Source of the DNA: Ruminococcus sp.
GTDB lineage: Bacteria > Bacillota > Clostridia > Oscillospirales > Ruminococcaceae
Assembly: GCF_017549005.1 (NCBI RefSeq)
Contig: NZ_JAFYYT010000022.1
Coordinates: 1 to 63,895 of the forward strand
Length of the DNA stretch: 63,895 bases
Direction: 5' to 3'
In this document: piece after piece, positions 5,555 to 46,101 of the stretch
Layout: the number at the start of each line of letters is the position of its first letter
How positions within the stretch are numbered: the first letter of the stretch is position 1
Position numbers and translations under genes: made by a program
Notes under the pieces: generated by a model
What the model saw: the letters and a program-made list of their open reading frames with translations, nothing else
The model's database searches: none
Told to the model about the DNA's origin: nothing

Positions 5555-7579
5555 TCAGCCGTTGGGGTTGAGAGAAGTTATCTTCTTGAGGAGATAGAGC
5601 TGTATCTGAAGAGCGTCGTTTGATGTGAGGCCCTTTGTGCTCGTATCAACGTCGCCGCAGTCCTGACCTTCCTTTGTGATGTGCTTTGCGTCAGTTCCGT
5701 TAACGCCGTACTTATTCGGATTTGCAAGGCTCTGCATGATGAGAACTGCGTCTGCCATGTCAACTCCGCCGTCGAGGTTAGCGTCGCCCCATAAAACACC
5801 CTCTGTTGCGTTGATGTCCTTTCCGGGCTGTGTGGTAGTTGTTGTAGTCTCCTCGTTCTTGGGAGCAGTTGTAGTTGTTGTTGTCGTTGTTGTAGTTGTC
5901 TCAGGCTTTGTGGTCGTGGTAGTTGTTGTAGTTGTAGTCGTAGTTGTTGTGGAAGTTGTAGTAGTTGTCGTAGTGCTTGTAGTGGAGGTAGTTGTTGTTG
6001 TTGTAGTTGTCGTTGTAGTTGTTGCAGGCTTTGTAGTAGTGGTCTTGTCAACTATAACAGGCTGACCGCTGCCTGACTTGCCGCCGTCGAGGTTGCTCTT
6101 AGCGCCCGATGAATAGAAGTCATTGAGCGAGATACCATTCTTTCCGAGAGCTGTCTGGTGGTCGAGACCGATGAACTTGCCGCCGTCTGTCTGCCAGAGA
6201 GTCTTCTTGAGGATACCGTAACGTGCAGAATCCCATGTCAGGAAGTCGTGGCTGAGAAGTCCGCCTGTATCGCCTGAGTTAGGATTGAGGCACCAGTAAG
6301 TGTGGTTGATGTGGTTCTTTACCATATAATCAGCAAGGAGCTCCATCCACTTCTGATTCTTTGTTCCGTCAACGAAGCCGCCCCACTCACCGATAAGGAG
6401 AGGAGCTATATCCTGGTCGTTGATGTAAGCCCATGTATCGTACCAGTAATCATCGAGGAGAGTCTGAGTGGTGAAGTTCTTGTCGAACCATGTCTGTGCA
6501 TAAACTGACGGGCCGTAGTCATGAGGCGAGTAAATTATCTTTGACTGCTTCTCGGGTGAGGACATCTTTATGGGATTGTCCTTTACGCCGCGGAGGTTGC
6601 CGCCCCACCATGCGCCGTGCCACTTCTTATCGTCCTCTGACTTAGGCTCCCATACATCGGGAGTATCAAATGTATAGCCCTTTTCGGTCATAGGATACTG
6701 CTCGATTCCCTCAATGAAGATAAGAGCGTTGGGGTTTACGTCGAGGATAGCCTCTGCACACTGAGTTGCAGCGTAAGCCCAGTTGTTCTCGTCCTTGGAG
6801 TCGTCCCACTTTGCAATAGTGCTCGGGCATGAGCTTCCTGTATATCCGCGCTTTCCGTGAGGCTCGTTCTTGAGGTCGTAGCCTATGAGAGTATCGTCGT
6901 TTGCGTACTTCTTGGCGAGCCATACAAGAGTATCCTGCCAGTCCTTTGTAGTGATGCCTGCCTTGCCGTACCAGAGCTCGTAATCGTGGCCCGAGTTGTT
7001 CTCGTCAGGGCTGTGAATGTCGATAAATGCTTTAAGGCCGTACTTCTTGCACTTCTGCATGATGATATCGAATATCTCCATTGAGTTCTTTACGGTCTTG
7101 CCGTCGGACTCAACGAAATCCTTGTTGATATTTGTGTAGTAGCCTGCGGGAGTTACCTTTCCGTCCTCGCCGACCTCGTCTACAGGCGGAGTATATGAAG
7201 CCTGTACCGAGCTTACATCGTGGGGCTTGCCGTCCATCCACGACTTGAGAAGAGTTGTGGAGATAGGCAGACGGAGAACGTTGATACCGTGGTCTGCGAT
7301 AGTCTGGAGCATATCGTCAACATCGGCAGCATACAGACCGTGAGCGCAGTTTTCAGAGCAGTTGAAGCCGAACCAGTTAGCGCCTGTGAGCCATACTTCA
7401 TTGCCGTTCATGTCGTAGATACGGCTTCCCTTTGCATGAAGCCAGTCATCGTTACAGTCATCGGCTGCAAAAGCCTTGTTGAATGAGTCTGTATCCACAG
7501 ACGGAGTGTAGGCAGTACCTGTTACGGTTATAGCTGCCGCAGCAGCAATCGCTGCCATAGAGCGTAAAAGCTTTTTCAT
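5555..7579 (-). CDS. Secreted GH5 cellulase with C-terminal dockerin (downstream copy)
   Basis: The 674-residue protein has a signal peptide (about 1-39), a GH5 domain (about 45-480), a long Thr linker and a type I dockerin (about 605-674). The acid/base Glu sits in DLKNEPHG and the nucleophile Glu in LLIGEWGG; the GANWFGFN start of the barrel resembles GH5 subfamily 1 endoglucanases. The dockerin has duplicated Ca-binding segments (GDANLDGGVDMADAVLIMQ and the later GDVDTSTKGLTSNDALQIQ) as in Ruminococcus cellulosomes. The protein is therefore expected to hydrolyse beta-1,4-glucan outside the cell while docked on a scaffoldin cohesin. The ATG after GAGAGGGAAATT is preferred to the further upstream Met. 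It lies 65 bases behind a paralogue, probably on one mRNA. Confidence 0.93.
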   Translation of the reverse strand: MKKLLRSMAAIAAAAAITVTGTAYTPSVDTDSFNKAFAADDCNDDWLHAKGSRIYDMNGNEVWLTGANWFGFNCSENCAHGLYAADVDDMLQTIADHGINVLRLPISTTLLKSWMDGKPHDVSSVQASYTPPVDEVGEDGKVTPAGYYTNINKDFVESDGKTVKNSMEIFDIIMQKCKKYGLKAFIDIHSPDENNSGHDYELWYGKAGITTKDWQDTLVWLAKKYANDDTLIGYDLKNEPHGKRGYTGSSCPSTIAKWDDSKDENNWAYAATQCAEAILDVNPNALIFIEGIEQYPMTEKGYTFDTPDVWEPKSEDDKKWHGAWWGGNLRGVKDNPIKMSSPEKQSKIIYSPHDYGPSVYAQTWFDKNFTTQTLLDDYWYDTWAYINDQDIAPLLIGEWGGFVDGTKNQKWMELLADYMVKNHINHTYWCLNPNSGDTGGLLSHDFLTWDSARYGILKKTLWQTDGGKFIGLDHQTALGKNGISLNDFYSSGAKSNLDGGKSGSGQPVIVDKTTTTKPATTTTTTTTTTTTSTTSTTTTTTTSTTTTTTTTTTTTTTKPETTTTTTTTTTTAPKNEETTTTTTQPGKDINATEGVLWGDANLDGGVDMADAVLIMQSLANPNKYGVNGTDAKHITKEGQDCGDVDTSTKGLTSNDALQIQLYLLKKITSLNPNG

Positions 7580-7644
7580 AATAATTTCCCTCTCATTATT
7601 TTTATTTTTGCCATGCAGCACCCTGAAGCTGCACGGTCAAATAC

Positions 7645-9444
7645 TTATTCAACGGGAAGAGTTCTGACCTTCCCAAGCAGGTAAAGCTGTATTGCCTGCG
7701 CGTCGTTGTTTGAAAGACCGTTGCTGCCCTCAACATCGGCGTTCTTCAGGCCCTCGTCGGTGATATGGTTCTTGTCAGTTCCCTTCAGGCCGTACTTGTT
7801 CGGGTTTGCAAGAGCCTGCATTATGAGAACAGCGTCTCCCATATCGATCGTGCCGTCGCAATTAGCGTCTCCGAAATTGCGTTTACTGACCGAGCTGACC
7901 GTTGTTGAGGTCAGCGTCGTAGTTGTAGCCGCAGAAGTTGTGGTAGTGGTCTTGTTTTCCTTAGTGGTCGAAGTTGTCGTAGTCTTGTCTGCGTCAACGG
8001 GCTTTCCGTCGGAGGTCTTGCCACCGTCAAGGTTGCTTCCCTCGGACTTTGCATAGGACGAATAGAACTCATTCAGCGATATGCCGTCCTTACCGAGAGC
8101 TACCTGATGGTCGAGACCGATGAACTTCTTTGAAGCCGAGGTCTTCCATATAGCCGGATAGTAGTATGTATCGTACTTTTCCTTATCCCAGTTTATGGTA
8201 GTTTTTCCCTCGCCGTTGGTCACGCCGAACTGGACGTCCTTCCAGAGTCCGCCGGTATCGCCCGAGTCGTCATTGAGGCACCAGAAGGTATGACTGATGT
8301 GATTTTTTATCATATAGTCGCGGAGAAGTCCAAGCCACTGTTCGTTCTTTCCACCGTCAAGACGTCCGCCCCACTCGCCGATGAGGAGAGGATACATATC
8401 CTTGTCCACAAGGTAAGCCCATGTATCGTACCAGTAATCGTCAAGGAGAGTCTTTTCCGTGAAGTCCTTGTTGAACCATGTCTGATCGCTTACTATGGGA
8501 CCGTAATCATGAGGCGAATAAACTATCTGTGAAGTGCCCGACTTGGGCATTACGGGATACTTTGCGACGCCGCGGAGATTTCCGCCCCACCATGCGCCGT
8601 GTCCCTCGAATCCCTCAACGCCCTCGATGATGATGAGCGCATTGGGGTTCTTTGCGAGTATAGCGTCAGCGCAGTCCTGCGCTGCTTTCTTCCAGTTGTT
8701 GGGAGCGTCGGAATCGTCCCAGATCGCGTCTATGGGAGCTCCGCCGTATTTGCTGTGAGGCTCGTTCTTCAGGTCGAAGCCTATAAGGGTATCGTCCCCT
8801 TTATAGTGATCCGCGCACCACGCAAGAGTTTCTATCCACAGGTCGGTCGTAACCTCAACGTTCTTTCCGCTGTGATCCTTGAAGCTCTTTCCGTACCACA
8901 GACCATAGTTGTGACCTGCGTTGTTGGATTCGGGGCTGTGTATGTCAATAAACGCCTTTACTCCGTACTTCTTGCACTTTGCAAGGAGAACGTCGAAGAG
9001 CTCCATGCTGTTTGCCGTATGTCCGTCGGACATTATAAGGTCCATATTGAACGGATAGCTCGGATCGCTGCTCGGCTTGATACTTCCTATGGGATTGGGG
9101 TCGCCCTCCATCCAGTTGTACAGCAGCTCCGTGGAAACGGGAAGTCTGAGAACATTTACGCCGTGGTCGGCAATATCCTTTACCATATCGTCGATATCGC
9201 CGTTCCAGAGGTAGTGAGGCGAGCACTCGGTGCAGTTGAAGCCGAACCAGTTAGCTCCCGTGAGCCATACCTCGTTGCCGTTCATGTCGTAAAGACGGCT
9301 GCCCTTTGCGTGGAGCCAGTCGTCGCCGTTCGTATCGACCGCATTTACTGTCATAGTGACCTGACTGAAACAGGGTGCTGCTCCCGTTGCAGTCATTACC
9401 GCAGCGGACACCAGAGCCGCCGCAGCACGTGCGAATTTTTTCAT
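7645..9444 (-). CDS. Secreted GH5 cellulase with C-terminal dockerin (upstream copy)
   Basis: The 599-residue paralogue of the following gene has a signal peptide (about 1-36), a GH5 domain with DLKNEPHS (acid/base) and LLIGEWGG (nucleophile), a shorter Thr/Ser linker and a dockerin starting at GDANCDGTIDMGDAVLIMQ. Compared with its neighbour it lacks an insert near the first third, carries an extra segment after GGLWKDVQF, and has a much shorter linker. The two enzymes probably differ in cleft loops and reach on the cellulosome. The start is the ATG behind GAGAGGGGAAATTAAA. A strong promoter lies about 63 bases upstream. Confidence 0.93.
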   Translation of the reverse strand: MKKFARAAAALVSAAVMTATGAAPCFSQVTMTVNAVDTNGDDWLHAKGSRLYDMNGNEVWLTGANWFGFNCTECSPHYLWNGDIDDMVKDIADHGVNVLRLPVSTELLYNWMEGDPNPIGSIKPSSDPSYPFNMDLIMSDGHTANSMELFDVLLAKCKKYGVKAFIDIHSPESNNAGHNYGLWYGKSFKDHSGKNVEVTTDLWIETLAWCADHYKGDDTLIGFDLKNEPHSKYGGAPIDAIWDDSDAPNNWKKAAQDCADAILAKNPNALIIIEGVEGFEGHGAWWGGNLRGVAKYPVMPKSGTSQIVYSPHDYGPIVSDQTWFNKDFTEKTLLDDYWYDTWAYLVDKDMYPLLIGEWGGRLDGGKNEQWLGLLRDYMIKNHISHTFWCLNDDSGDTGGLWKDVQFGVTNGEGKTTINWDKEKYDTYYYPAIWKTSASKKFIGLDHQVALGKDGISLNEFYSSYAKSEGSNLDGGKTSDGKPVDADKTTTTSTTKENKTTTTTSAATTTTLTSTTVSSVSKRNFGDANCDGTIDMGDAVLIMQALANPNKYGLKGTDKNHITDEGLKNADVEGSNGLSNNDAQAIQLYLLGKVRTLPVE

Positions 9445-9506
9445 TTTAATTTCCCCTCTCATAGTGCACAGATAAAGCGCACTTATAGTCGATTATATTG
9501 TAACAT

Positions 9507-19278: not shown

Positions 19279-19360
19279 GTGATTTCATATTATTTTATTT
19301 ATTTACTAATTTGGACTTCGCAGAGCTAAGAACTAAGTAGGGGCGGATATTATCTGCCCG

Positions 19361-19392
19361 AAAAAAACGCGGCAGGTATTGCCCTTGCCGCG
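19361..19392 (-). terminator. Strong terminator behind a gene remnant
   Basis: On the minus strand CGCGGCA pairs with TGCCGCG (extended by AGG/CCT with a bulge), followed by seven T. It lies 11 bases after the stop of the fragment at 19404-19532. Confidence 0.75.
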
Positions 19393-19403
19393 CTGTGTAT
19401 TTA

Positions 19404-19532
19404 TTATGGAATCCATGAAATTTCAAAACGGTCAAGGCTGTCATTACAAAATGTAAATTCATACCCACTGTCATGACTTGTAAATTTACCTGAAACCACC
19501 TTATAATTATAATCCGAATATGTAGGCTCACC
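19404..19532 (-). pseudogene. C-terminal gene remnant with no start
   Basis: One frame encodes about 42 codons that look protein-like (EPTYSDYNYK... to ...DRFEISWIP) and end in TAA just before a real terminator. Upstream the frame runs into stops in the 7-bp array, and there is no start or ribosome site. I read it as the 3' end of a lost gene, cut at the array. Its family is not recognised. Confidence 0.45.
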
Positions 19533-19582
19533 GCGTTCTTAGCTCTTAGTTCTTAGTTCTTCATTCTTAGCTCTCCAAACGC

Positions 19583-41038: not shown

Positions 41039-41076
41039 TAAGAACTAAGATTAAGAGCTAAGAACTAAGAACTAAG
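41039..41076. repeat. 7-bp-period array after the M16C gene
   Basis: TAAGAAC/TAAGATT/AAGAGC-type units repeat five times, followed by the small ACGGGCGGC-TTT-GCCGTCCGT hairpin (about 41079-41099). Confidence 0.7.
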
Positions 41077-41113: not shown

Positions 41114-41144
41114 AACGCCCCGAAGCTAAAGCTCCGGGGCGTTA
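41114..41144. terminator. Bidirectional terminator between the M16C and radical SAM genes
   Basis: AACGCCCCG...CGGGGCGTT around an AAGCTAAAGCT core. It serves the convergent radical SAM gene and possibly the M16C gene. Confidence 0.75.
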
Positions 41145-41157
41145 TCACTGCATAGAT

Positions 41158-42231
41158 TTAAAAGAGTATATCCTTAAAACAGAGCTGCGGCTTATGACTG
41201 TCGAAGTCCCAGCTGTGATAGGAATCACCGTGGCAGAACTCTTTCTGGTCGCACTTGGCGCAGGTAGGATTATCGTCGGAAAGGTCGCGGCGGAACACAC
41301 TGAACTTATTCTCCCATACCTCGCTGAAGCGGTCGCGAAGTATATTGCCCTGCACGAACTCAGGTCTGCGCTCAATATCGAGACAGGCTGTTATATCGCC
41401 GTTTGCACTGATACTTGCCGTGTAAAGTCCGGCTGTGCAGAGGAAATACCAGTCGCGCACCTCGCGTTCATACTCCATTCCGAGATAGTGGCTGCAGCCG
41501 TAGGAAACAGGCTCGCCTGCTATCCTCTTATTGCGTATGAACTCCATGAGCGTTCTGTAGTCGTCGTCCGTGAGGAGAAGCTCAGGGTGAGTTTTTGCAC
41601 GTCCCATGGGCTCCATATTTACAACTCGCCATGAGTCTATATCCATTTCGTTGAATATCTTGTAAAGCTCGTCAAGCTCGGTAATGCTCTTGTGAGTTAT
41701 GACCGATGTGACCTGTATATGCTCGAAGCAGTCTAACCTTATGAGGTTCTCGATGCCCTCCATAGCCTTTTTATAGCCGCCGGGAGTCCTTCTGAACTCA
41801 TCATGGGTCGCTTCAAGACCGTCGATACTGATGGAAATGGTCTTCATTCCCGTTCTTTTCAGCTCTTTTGCCACATATTCGTCGATAAGGGTGCCGTTTG
41901 AAGTCATTCCCCACTCAAAGCCGAGCTCATGAGCAGCTCCGAGGATATCGAAGAAGTCCTTCCTGAGAAGCGGCTCTCCGCCTGTAATATCCAGCATTTT
42001 GCCCTCTGTGGACATATCCTCTTTCAGCTGTGCAAGGAACTGACGGTACTGCTCTACGGAGAGCTCCTCAGAGCTAACGTCGCCGCACTGGCTTCCGCAG
42101 TGGAGACATCTCTCATTGCAGCGCAGCGTGAGCTCGAGGAAAAGGTTGCGGAGCTCAGGCTTTTTCATGAGCAACCTGCGGTAGTCATTCATCTGTTCAA
42201 GATGAGTGCGTTTCATGTTGACGTCGAGCAT
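41158..42231 (-). CDS. Radical SAM/SPASM enzyme, candidate maturase of the upstream LYG-dockerin protein
   Basis: The 357-residue protein has the SAM-cluster motif CNERCLHC (C38, C42, C45), TGGEPLL (83-89), and a C-terminal SPASM region with Cys before and after SISANGDITAC, then CAKCDQKEFC and a late Cys. Auxiliary clusters of this kind are typical of peptide/protein-modifying radical SAM enzymes. The start is the ATG one base after the upstream stop, behind AAGAGGAC; an in-frame Met ten codons earlier overlaps the upstream gene. No RRE-like N-terminal domain is obvious. Tight coupling to a Cys-free secreted protein with repeated LYG motifs suggests that protein is the substrate. PlpX-type spliceases recognise XYG; whether this enzyme belongs there needs a phylogeny. 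Confidence 0.85.
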   Translation of the reverse strand: MLDVNMKRTHLEQMNDYRRLLMKKPELRNLFLELTLRCNERCLHCGSQCGDVSSEELSVEQYRQFLAQLKEDMSTEGKMLDITGGEPLLRKDFFDILGAAHELGFEWGMTSNGTLIDEYVAKELKRTGMKTISISIDGLEATHDEFRRTPGGYKKAMEGIENLIRLDCFEHIQVTSVITHKSITELDELYKIFNEMDIDSWRVVNMEPMGRAKTHPELLLTDDDYRTLMEFIRNKRIAGEPVSYGCSHYLGMEYEREVRDWYFLCTAGLYTASISANGDITACLDIERRPEFVQGNILRDRFSEVWENKFSVFRRDLSDDNPTCAKCDQKEFCHGDSYHSWDFDSHKPQLCFKDILF

Positions 42232-42232
42232 A

Positions 42233-43030
42233 TTACTTGTCCTCTTGCTGCTCTTCTTCAACAGCTTCTGCCATTTCCTTGATATTATCGAAGGCGTTGC
42301 CTGTAATCTCCTTTATCTTGTCGATAGAAGGCTTTATACCGTAAAGTGTTACTACTATATCGCTTCTCGGATCGTATGAAGTTGTTACAACCGCAGCAGT
42401 AGTAGTTGTTGTTGACTTGTTCTTATCCTTTGTAGTGGTCTTGTTGCTGAGACCTGAAGAGTTATACTCCTTGAAGTCCTTTATAGCTCCGAGGAGGAAC
42501 CTGTGAAGGAGAACAAGGTCGGTAACGTCTATCTTTCCGTCGGAATTGATATCGCTGAGGAGCTTTGCCCTCTCGCTCTTGTACTCGTCGAAGAGAATAG
42601 CTCTTCTGAGTGCGATAGCGTCAAACGTGTCGATTATCTGGTCGTCGTTGACGTCGCCCTTCAGCTTCATGAGACTTTCATTGAGTTCCTTGTCTATTGT
42701 GGTAGTCGTCAGAGGCGGTCCGTACAGGAGAACGGGCATTGTGGTAGTTGTTGTTGTGAACATCCAGGGCGGTCCGTAGAGAGTAACTATAGAAGTTGTT
42801 GTAAGCCTTGTCAGTTCCTGTGTAGTAATTGCAGCAGTGGTAGTTGTGACCTTCTGCTCACCTTTTTCTTCCTTGTTGTTCCAGTTCTGATCGCTGATGG
42901 TCACAGTCTCAACAGGATCGACCTTCGGGCGGCTGCTTCCGCCGTTGTCAGCTGCGTCGGCAGGAACAGCAGAAAGATTTGCCGCTGCAAACATAGCTGC
43001 CGTCATAACGGTAAAAATACTTTTTTTCAT
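42233..43030 (-). CDS. Secreted dockerin protein with three LYG motifs, candidate RiPP-like precursor
   Basis: The 265-residue protein has a signal peptide (about 1-26, ending near PADA-AD), Thr-rich linkers, a central dockerin (about 125-182; GDVNDDQIIDTFDAIALRR, then SDINSDGKIDVTDLVLLHR) and an acidic C-terminal helix (about 236-265). Outside the dockerin the only structured islands are SIVTLYGPPWM (80-90), PVLLYGPPL (99-107) and IVVTLYGIKP (225-234), each set in Thr linkers. There is no Cys at all, which rules out thioether crosslinks. No catalytic or binding domain is present besides the dockerin. The start is the ATG behind GAGGAGAG. The radical SAM gene starts one base after the stop. 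The substrate relationship is inferred from architecture. Confidence 0.85.
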   Translation of the reverse strand: MKKSIFTVMTAAMFAAANLSAVPADAADNGGSSRPKVDPVETVTISDQNWNNKEEKGEQKVTTTTAAITTQELTRLTTTSIVTLYGPPWMFTTTTTTMPVLLYGPPLTTTTIDKELNESLMKLKGDVNDDQIIDTFDAIALRRAILFDEYKSERAKLLSDINSDGKIDVTDLVLLHRFLLGAIKDFKEYNSSGLSNKTTTKDKNKSTTTTTAAVVTTSYDPRSDIVVTLYGIKPSIDKIKEITGNAFDNIKEMAEAVEEEQQEDK

Positions 43031-43116: not shown

Positions 43117-43145
43117 ATTTTACTCTATTTCTGCTCATTTGTCAA
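43117..43145 (-). promoter_or_regulatory. Promoter of the LYG-dockerin/radical SAM operon
   Basis: Perfect TTGACA (43145-43140), 17 bp, TAAAAT (43122-43117) on the minus strand, giving a leader of about 80 nt. Confidence 0.75.
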
Positions 43146-44574: not shown

Positions 44575-46101
44575 TTATTCCGACCAGTACTTGCGGTCAA
44601 GGCTCCTGAACTGTGCCGCTGCCGCAACATGAGCTTTCTGTATAACTTCCGAGCCGTTTATGTCCGCGATAGTCCTTGCGACCTTCAATATGCGGTCGTA
44701 AGCTCTTGCGCTCAGTCCGAGCCTGTCGAAAACGCTCTTCATAAGCAACTCAGCCGCGTCGTCCATAGGACAGAACTCCTGCAATTTATCGGGAGTTATC
44801 AGTGCGTTGCAGGTTATGCCCGTTCCTCTGAAGCGCTCCTCCTGTATGGCTCTTGCCGCTACTACGCGCTTTCTTATCTCTGCGGAGCTCTCCTCCTTCG
44901 CCTTTGACGAGAGGTCGCCGAACTCCACGGGAGCGACCTCGATATGGAGGTCGAATCTGTCAAGCAACGGTCCCGATATCTTTGAAAGATAGCCCGTTAC
45001 CTTATTCTTAGGGCATATGCACCTGCGCTTCGGGTGGCCGTAATATCCGCAGGGACACGGGTTCATTGCGCCTATGAGCATAATGGTACAGGGATATGTG
45101 ACAGTTCCCGAGGCGCGGGCAATAGTCACCTTTCTGTCCTCCAGCGGCTGACGTAGTATCTCCAGGGTCTTGCGGTCAAACTCCGCAAGCTCGTCCAGAA
45201 ACAGCAGTCCGTTATGAGCAAGGGACACCTCTCCCGGGTGTGGAACTGTTCCGCCGCCTGCAAGCCCAGCCGAGGATATTGTATGGTGCGGAGCGCGGAA
45301 CGGCCTTTTTGTTATTATAGGCATTTCTGAGTTGAGTAATCCGGAAATGGAGTGAATTTTTGTAGTTTCAAGAGCTTCCTCAAAGGTCAGGGGCGGAAGT
45401 ATGGACGGCATACGCTTTGCGAGCATACTTTTTCCGCTTCCCGGAGAGCCTATGAGCAGGGCATTGTGGCCGCCTGCCGCAGCTATTTCCAAAGCCTTTT
45501 TCGCGGACTGCTGTCCCCTTACGTCGGAAAAGTCCAGGGTTTCGTTATATGCAGTCTCCGGCGGAACATAGTGCTCGCAGGGAGTAAGCTTCTCTTCGTT
45601 CCTGAAATGGCGGATAAGCTCCTCGGCGTTGCTGACTGCATATATGTCAACTCCGTCGATAACAGAAGCCTCCTTTGCGTTGTCAGCAGGCACAAAAACT
45701 GATTTAATACCTGTTTCACGGGCAAGCATGACCATAGGGAGAACTCCGTTGATACGGCGTATATCACCGTTGAGGGATATCTCTCCTATGAACGTACAGC
45801 CCTCAAGCACATCGTCTATCATTCTCATTCAGCGCAGGATAGCCATGAATATTGCCATATCATGCACGGAACCGCTCTTTTTTGTATCGGCAGGGGCAAG
45901 GTTTACCATCACCGAAGCAACGGGAAAGCTGATGCTGCACGAACGAAGTGCAGCACGGATACGCTCTCGGCTCTCCTTAACCACGGTATCGGGGAGTCCG
46001 ACCACTTCAAACTGCGGATTACCGCGGCTTATGTCGATCTCAACGTCCACAGGGAATGCGTTCAGTCCGAAAAGTCCGAGACTTGATACCTTTGCAAACA
46101 T
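44575..46101 (-). pseudogene. comM: YifB/ComM-like Mg-chelatase-type AAA+ ATPase, interrupted by an in-frame TGA
   Basis: Two parts lie in one frame. Residues 1-90 (start behind AAGGGGGATA; GLNAFPVDVEIDISRGNPQFEVVGLPD, the ChlI-like N-domain) end at TGA (45831-45829). The remaining 418 codons carry Walker A GSPGSGKS, LLFLDELAEF, the Cys-rich NPCPCGYYG...CICPK insert, and the C-terminal domain. The residue at the stop falls in a loop where Ser is common, so TCA to TGA explains it. ComM/YifB is a hexameric branch-migration helicase for integrating transformed DNA. No ribosome site precedes the ATG directly after the TGA. Nonsense mutation or base-call error are the likely explanations. Confidence 0.85.

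Follow-up and report, generated by a model that had tools for sequence, protein, structure and literature searches.

A radical SAM/SPASM enzyme and an exported, dockerin-bearing protein with repeated X-Tyr-Gly (X-Y-G) sites are encoded side by side in the 63,895-nucleotide stretch of Ruminococcus sp. DNA that we analysed (hereafter, the window), and both the pairing and the X-Y-G sites are conserved among relatives. Judging from these sequence comparisons, the two genes probably constitute a maturation unit, in which the enzyme excises tyramine at X-Y-G and leaves alpha-ketoamides on surface-anchored proteins.

Both open reading frames were verified on the minus strand. P0002, the predicted substrate, is a secreted XYG/dockerin protein of 265 amino acids (42233-43030) and comes first; P0001, a radical SAM/SPASM enzyme of 357 amino acids in the TIGR04133 clade (41158-42231), comes second, with a single base between the P0002 stop codon and the P0001 ATG. 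This agrees with the original prediction of a 265-residue secreted protein without Cys that is followed after one base by a radical SAM enzyme, as both the coordinates and the count of 0 Cys were confirmed. A GGAGAG-type ribosome binding site was recognized by eye just 5' of P0002 on the minus strand. The predicted TTGACA promoter was also located upstream of P0002, as a promoter-like TTGACA-17-TAAAAT sequence with 11/12 matches (43117-43145, minus strand), and an intrinsic-terminator-like hairpin of 13 bp lies directly 3' of the enzyme gene (41114-41143, minus strand). The promoter and terminator calls lean on position as much as on score, since shuffled sequences also give such sites (4 promoter-like sites in the region vs a mean of 2.6 in the shuffles, and 4 terminator-like sites vs 2.1). 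Among named genomes, those of Ruminococcus (R. flavefaciens) are the nearest relatives, and the genome under study contains 10 cohesin matches, 8 of them over the cut-off, and 6 serpin matches.

P0002 has 6 Tyr and 11 Gly residues, and its linkers are rich in Thr. A Sec signal peptide, assigned by eye, spans approximately residues 1-26 (MKKSIFTVMTAAMFAAANLSAVPADA; 42953-43030, minus strand), and the relatives start similarly. The only Pfam match above the cut-off is Dockerin_1 (PF00404, E 4e-11) at residues 124-180 (42491-42661, minus strand), a type I dockerin with two calcium-loop repeats and invariant calcium-ligand columns. With this type I dockerin and the cohesins in the genome, P0002 qualifies as a cellulosomal dockerin protein. 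In the AlphaFold model (12 sequences), the pLDDT was 73-88 in blocks of residues 121-190 and 30-56 elsewhere. Three LYG sites were found on the minus strand, the former two by pattern match: L84-Y85-G86, followed by PPWMF (42773-42781), L102-Y103-G104, followed by PP (42719-42727), and L229-Y230-G231, followed by IKP (42338-42346). Their contexts are SIVTLYGPP, PVLLYGPP and VVTLYGIKP, and the Tyr and Gly of each site are invariant in 12 aligned sequences. When the residues of P0002 were shuffled 20,000 times, at least three YG pairs arose in a fraction of 0.00095 and three LYG in none. Comparison with NCBIfam and Pfam revealed no Nif11 or nitrile-hydratase-type leader family among the matches of P0002, and no match to TIGR04134 at E 1. 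A search of the genome for sequences encoding [VL]YGPP returned five, namely two in P0002, a RuvB-like protein, an AAA ATPase and a further locus (L166) in which no YGxP frame exceeds 40 residues; thus, no second secreted substrate of the [VL]YGPP type (with V or L as X) was seen in the genome.

P0001 matches the Radical_SAM (E 4.7e-20) and SPASM (PF13186, E 4.8e-9) families of Pfam. The predicted CxxxCxxC motif for the catalytic [4Fe-4S] cluster is present as CNERCLHC (C38, C42 and C45; 42097-42120, minus strand) and is invariant in a 34-sequence alignment that includes P0001. The SPASM domain comprises residues 265-328 (41248-41439, minus strand) with C265, C283, C324 and C327, and further cysteines, C333, C351 and the upstream C246, surround it. 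The SPASM cysteines named in the original prediction are therefore real, but their pattern is non-canonical: P0001 lacks the canonical seven-Cys SPASM arrangement with CX2CX5CX3C, as the fourth Cys of this motif is replaced by Ser337, and Cys246 is conserved instead. Compared with TIGR04103, C6 of SPASM is lost, and Cys246 and Cys49 are kept. The AlphaFold model of P0001 (pLDDT 83.9, pTM 0.86) gave SkfB, SuiB, BlsE, the sactipeptide maturase 5why and anSME as the best Foldseek matches. Only about 28 residues, with one helix, precede the barrel in the model, and neither the model nor the grouping of neighbours at the locus revealed a PlpY/RRE domain fused to P0001 or recurring beside it. The best NCBIfam family is TIGR04133, at 279.9 bits and below the cut-off of 425. 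TIGR04103, the PlpX-type splicease family, which we take to be the same as IPR026482, scored 121.2 bits against a cut-off of 725, slightly less than the AhbD, MftC, NirJ and WgkB families. Among the best 25 of 80 NCBIfam matches, P0001 is below the curated cut-off of every one.

The consensus of the partner proteins, as read from their sequences, is [VLA]-Y-G-P-P-x-x-[FY], carried by dockerin proteins, by lipoproteins and in tandem copies. In 517 motifs from 134 genes, position -1 was V (0.51), L (0.20) or A (0.07), positions +2 and +3 were mostly P (0.80 and 0.72), and position +6 was F (0.25) or Y (0.13), together 0.38; these frequencies are somewhat inflated, since the genes were picked for having at least two motifs. 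The motif is XYG(P/x)P and not the V(T/L)LYG of the original prediction. The 12-sequence alignment consists of P0002 and 11 relatives chosen for a similar layout (78 to 34% identity). Most of its linker columns drift, while the three YG pairs hold. M1, the three Y-G pairs, the dockerin columns, T210, YxP (Y219 and P221) and E263 are invariant, so that residues other than YG are conserved as well. In an alignment of 78 partners, for which the nearest two-motif gene of each locus was taken, M1 is the only invariant residue, and the columns conserved at 90% or more include one Tyr and one Tyr-Gly pair. Dockerin_1 matched 66 of the 78 partners. The dockerin of the original prediction is present in P0002 but optional in the family, with lipoproteins as other carriers; several partners (L055, L095, L105, L111 and L115 among them) are short lipoproteins of VYGPP units. 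These data support the view that XYG is a selected feature of the partner protein. Its conservation marks a putative modification or recognition site, and does not indicate which reaction takes place there.

We then examined how consistently the enzyme and the partner occur together. The enzyme was found in 45 of 149 relatives, all 45 of the same genus, and is absent from at least 20 genomes of that genus. The expected recurrence of the pair in relatives was thus borne out insofar as the enzyme comes with a partner, but many same-genus genomes lack both. In all 30 enzyme loci that were examined among the 45, our own included, a gene with two or more YG motifs lies close upstream. A scan with one genome per species, in which the best 80 of 486 relatives (66-92% identical) were kept, extended this result; 62 of the 80 loci are titled Ruminococcus and the rest Oscillospiraceae, Clostridiales, Clostridia, Bacillota and one Lachnospiraceae bacterium, and they are not an independent sample because they overlap with the 149-genome set. 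The upstream ORF was defined irrespective of content, as the longest ORF ending between 350 bases before and 30 bases past the enzyme start, and contained at least one YG in 80/80 loci and at least two in 77/80. In total, these upstream ORFs hold 356 YG pairs vs 51.4 expected from shuffling, and the downstream ORFs of 66 loci show no excess (29 vs 34.3). Under a second rule, 78 of the 80 loci have a gene with two or more motifs within 2.5 kb, and 40 of these 78 have 2-4 such putative substrate genes. Outside this rule are a locus with a 66-residue lipoprotein bearing one VYGPP (L090) and a contig that ends 188 bases before the enzyme (L116). When all ORFs within 3.5 kb were clustered by sequence similarity, the XYG family occurred in 77/80 loci (144 ORFs, all in the direction of the enzyme). 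Three further large groups (72, 51 and 33 loci) consist of ORFs overlapping the enzyme gene, judging from examples, and the next non-overlapping neighbour occurs in only 17/80 loci. The XYG family is therefore the only widely recurrent neighbour, which argues for a two-component unit. A profile built from 16 VYGPP lipoproteins likewise matched 44 of the 149 relatives, and 40 of these belong to the 45 enzyme genomes. The five enzyme genomes without a profile match (our own, G006, G040, G067 and G080) have longer secreted partners, mostly of the dockerin type by eye. The four matches without the enzyme comprise a contig break inside the substrate gene (G004), a fragment with one VYGPP in a genome that is 82% complete (G016), and two cases with no YGxP in the matched frame (G012 and G130).

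Outside the genus, the system is patchy. Across the phylum (299 genomes, E 1e-50), a TIGR04133 search produced 4 matches, our own included and none over the cut-off, and two of the four (L034 and L035) group with TIGR04103 in the tree. A sample of the order gave 5 matches in 295 genomes, again with our own, and one family (that of G369) gave 17 in 150 at E 1e-30; strong matches (E 1e-114 or better) account for 11 of these, and the remaining 6 fall in other clades. For 14 loci with an uncut enzyme in other Clostridia (L118-L132 minus L120), the partners were judged by inspection. A partner with at least two XYGxP sites was found in 8/14, and a single site in 4/14, namely an FHA-like protein (L121), a lipoprotein (L124) and two zinc-ribbon proteins (L130 and L131). 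The remaining two, L126 and L132, have no evident XYGxP partner within approximately 8 kb; the L126 enzyme keeps all of the cluster cysteines, and that of L132 lacks the CxxxCxxC stretch. The enzyme occurring widely without the LYG protein, named in the original prediction as a finding that would speak against it, was thus seen neither in the 80 loci nor in the 30, but these two further-out loci are of that kind. Applied to 14 of 15 further-out loci, the upstream-ORF rule counted 32 YG vs 7.2 expected. Four of the 14 upstream ORFs (L122, L124, L126 and L131) have no YG, and the rule misses the partner in L122, where the longest ORF is not the lipoprotein, and in L131, where the candidate lies downstream. 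In the small lipoproteins of L118, L119 and L127, the site directly follows the presumed lipid-bearing Cys, and the partners of L123 and L127 consist of little beyond YGPP repeats in acidic linkers, with no T-rich runs. Among plasmid records, TIGR04133 enzymes of Parabacteroides and Treponema (607.9 and 451.4 bits, cut-off 425) adjoin TIGR04134 lipoproteins (207.1 and 43.7 bits, cut-off 39.8) that contain CEYGSP and CYGMP, respectively, and in Phocaeicola an enzyme of the same clade by the tree has a downstream lipoprotein with CEYGTP; the motif in Bacteroidota and Treponema is represented by these three plasmid-record loci. A comparison of the Parabacteroides enzyme with viral contigs found no relative.

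Two trees were built to place P0001 relative to the spliceases. In a first tree, two clades were joined at 92/88, with long branches for L002, L146 and the MftC rows. In a second tree of 39 rows, from which some rows including L002, L146 and L132 were dropped and to which more outgroups were added, the TIGR04133-type enzymes including P0001 grouped together (100/99), as did the TIGR04103, GDL and KYGYP enzymes (96/96). These clades are sister to each other (100/98), with the MftC and NirJ-like rows outside, and this sister relation is relative to the sample, since the outgroups were taken by similarity from plasmid records. The proposed likeness to PlpX-type enzymes is thus reflected in a clade sister to TIGR04103 and in no clade with another known function, but P0001 itself lies in the TIGR04133 clade and not in the PlpX family. 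A true TIGR04103 enzyme of Nostoc (L142, 853.1 bits) adjoins a Nif11-leader peptide with ALYGLPPELF, which ends in SIALYGLPPELF, and a 71-residue downstream protein, and the clostridial members of the TIGR04103 clade, L133 and L134, adjoin proteins with KYGYP repeats. X-Y-G-x-P is thereby common to the Nostoc precursor and the three Bacteroidota/Treponema lipoproteins (EYGSP, EYGTP and CYGMP). PlpX is assigned to subclass IPR026482 and, together with the RRE protein PlpY, acts on Xaa-Tyr-Gly (PMC11002830), and PlpXY excises C8H9NO at its natural sites MYG and LYG and does not need the leader (PMC10533398). PlpXY is fussy about context: it accepted 2 of 16 splice tags inserted into FtsZ, each a GYG tag with PIRPGYGLPI as its core, and neither of the two LYG tags (PMC10533398). 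At the Nostoc locus, 1 of 3 precursor-like peptides contains YG.

Membership of P0001 in the PlpX family was rejected on the score, the SPASM Cys pattern, the lack of an RRE alongside and the lack of a leader; since all four fail, we favour an enzyme that works like a splicease over one that is a member of the family. P0001 resembles PlpXY of Pleurocapsa as a sister-clade radical SAM/SPASM enzyme with X-Y-G as the predicted substrate motif, followed by x-P in the Nostoc precursor, but its TIGR04103 score is far below the cut-off, no PlpY/RRE gene stands alongside the pair, and its predicted substrates are dockerin proteins or lipoproteins exported by Sec instead of Nif11/NHLP-leader peptides. 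With the TIGR04133/TIGR04134 pair, it shares the enzyme clade and the adjacent exported X-Y-G-x-P partner, whereas P0001 is below the TIGR04133 cut-off, P0002 lacks a TIGR04134 match, and the motif is multiplied and dockerin-borne here. TIGR04133 has no named function, and its annotated partner TIGR04134 is called a "radical SAM-associated putative lipoprotein". The GDL-motif/DUF1843 systems (TIGR03913) belong to the sister clade, and their DUF1843 peptides carry PYG near the start in 2 of 5 and AYG further in in a third, but these peptides are small and have neither a dockerin nor an evident signal sequence.

The case for tyramine excision derives chiefly from the motif that is common to both clades, and the enzyme might instead crosslink the Tyr of XYG (as a cyclophane or ether) or oxidize its side chain or backbone, with no excision. 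We consider such another reaction rather unlikely. It would be compatible with the best folds of P0001, which are the general peptide maturases SkfB, SuiB and anSME, with the slightly higher scores of AhbD, MftC and NirJ over TIGR04103, with SPASM ligands unlike those of TIGR04103, and with the frequent aromatic residue at +6, a possible crosslink partner. However, no residue after YG is fixed, neither the prolines at +2 and +3 nor the F/Y at +6, and a constant crosslink partner is therefore absent; the sister clade moreover includes TIGR04103 with its XYGxP precursor, and the Gly at +1, part of the PlpX XYG rule as given in PMC11002830, is kept along with the Tyr.

XYGPP could also be a mere recognition tag or binding motif, with the enzyme altering other residues, such as Thr or Pro of the linkers, or another protein altogether. 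The linkers are rich in Thr and Pro, and several genomes have profile matches off the enzyme contig (few of them inspected), as might be the case for a general tag, but the YG pairs stay while most linker columns diverge, and the L123 and L127 partners, being almost entirely YGPP repeats in acidic linkers, have no T-rich runs; we regard this reading as improbable. The idea that no covalent modification occurs at all, the partners being ordinary Tyr/Pro-rich surface linkers and the enzyme serving another pathway, appears very improbable. Although P0001 is below the cut-offs of its best 25 of 80 NCBIfam matches, and L126, whose enzyme has all of its cluster cysteines, and L132 have no evident partner, the two genes adjoin in 80/80 loci, co-occur across the 149 genomes, and are adjacent again in other Clostridia, Bacteroidota and Treponema.

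For the splicease-like unit, we propose the following course. P0002 would be synthesized carrying a Sec signal, with its multiple X-Tyr-Gly sites located in unstructured linkers, and the enzyme likely rewrites the LYG sites before export, which is the simplest order because translocation by Sec requires an unfolded chain and no signal peptide is evident by eye in the enzyme. Each product site would read X-CO-CO-NH-Gly, a reactive group that is absent from ordinary proteins. The exported protein would then be anchored at the cell surface by its dockerin, or by a lipid anchor in the relatives, and since flexible linkers flank the dockerin, the product sites would be exposed on the cellulosome. 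Their role, the weakest step of the proposal, might be the reversible trapping of serine/cysteine proteases that attack the surface machinery, with X as the P1 residue. Serine and cysteine proteases are trapped by alpha-ketoamides, and the V, L or A at P1, together with a frequent Pro at P2, is reminiscent of elastase-type substrates. We know of no link between the dockerin serpins of R. flavefaciens and a radical SAM enzyme. These serpins, which R. flavefaciens FD-1 places on dockerins (PMC2930009), are protease inhibitors on the cellulosome and a precedent for the proposed role, but they are folded serpin domains; spliceotide products are in turn termed protease inhibitors (PMC11117315). Taken together, ketoamide trapping, the spliceotide inhibitors, the P1 preference and the dockerin serpins make a surface protease trap plausible by analogy. 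The modified sites may also capture amines, as originally proposed.

More broadly, and tentatively, the TIGR04133 clade could represent a second branch of spliceases, independent of a leader and with exported proteins as substrates; ruminococci and other gut bacteria would then present arrays of alpha-ketoamides, as carbonyl-bearing sites that trap proteases or react with amines, on their cellulosomes and membrane lipoproteins, and the carrier, a dockerin or a lipid anchor, would be exchanged around a constant XYGPP. Among the matches listed in our literature searches, no paper describes the combination of radical SAM, XYG and dockerin; none of them contained both "radical SAM" and "dockerin", and no paper naming TIGR04133 or TIGR04134 was found. 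The parts are of known kinds (radical SAM, XYG and dockerin), and the novelty of their combination is uncertain. The title of Scott et al. 2022 (Chem 8:2659) reportedly speaks of "peptides and proteins". That study, to which PMC10533398 attributes 27 other characterised systems and 939 predicted ones, may already cover some of the loci described here.

The proposal provides a testable function for two families, TIGR04133 and its partner TIGR04134, that are named in NCBIfam without one. If it is true, one gene, without an RRE and a leader, would be a simpler splicing enzyme for installing reactive handles in proteins, and backbone-edited proteins with reactive ketoamides would be found on the surfaces, and in the cellulosomes, of bacteria of the rumen and gut.

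Elsewhere in the window, codon 91 of the gene for a ComM/YifB-like ATPase (44575-46101, minus strand) is an in-frame stop that breaks the reading frame; a relative, at locus L074, lacks a stop at the corresponding place. The AAGAACT-type heptamer repeats form clusters at 19321-19568 and 41053-41076, where six matches were seen vs 0.03 expected. By eye, the ORF list also contains two secreted proteins encoded in tandem (5555-9462, minus strand) with Thr-rich linkers and dockerin-like ends, both of which resemble family 5 endoglucanases.

In the sister TIGR04103/GDL clade, the enzymes of two clostridial loci, L133 and L134, have a C-terminal extension and are adjoined by KYG-repeat proteins, in which the repeats are mainly KYGYP (eight KYG in the L133 protein). 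The tree also places in this clade the enzyme of a Tropicibacter plasmid (L177), where genes for a trypsin-like peptidase and an M23 peptidase come after that of the enzyme.

In genome G016, a remnant (L170) retains one VYGPP and the enzyme was not found in the assembly, as if the substrate decays after loss of the enzyme; since this assembly is 82% complete, the enzyme may simply be absent from it. In genome G719, the TIGR04133-clade enzyme (L132) lacks the CxxxCxxC stretch, through either a deletion or an assembly error, both being possible, and inspection of its neighbourhood revealed no evident XYGxP partner.

At two other clostridial loci, L130 and L131, the TIGR04133-clade enzyme is adjoined by a zinc-ribbon protein with a single IYGPxPE motif and no evident signal peptide. 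These zinc-ribbon proteins are candidates for cytosolic substrates of the adjoining enzymes.
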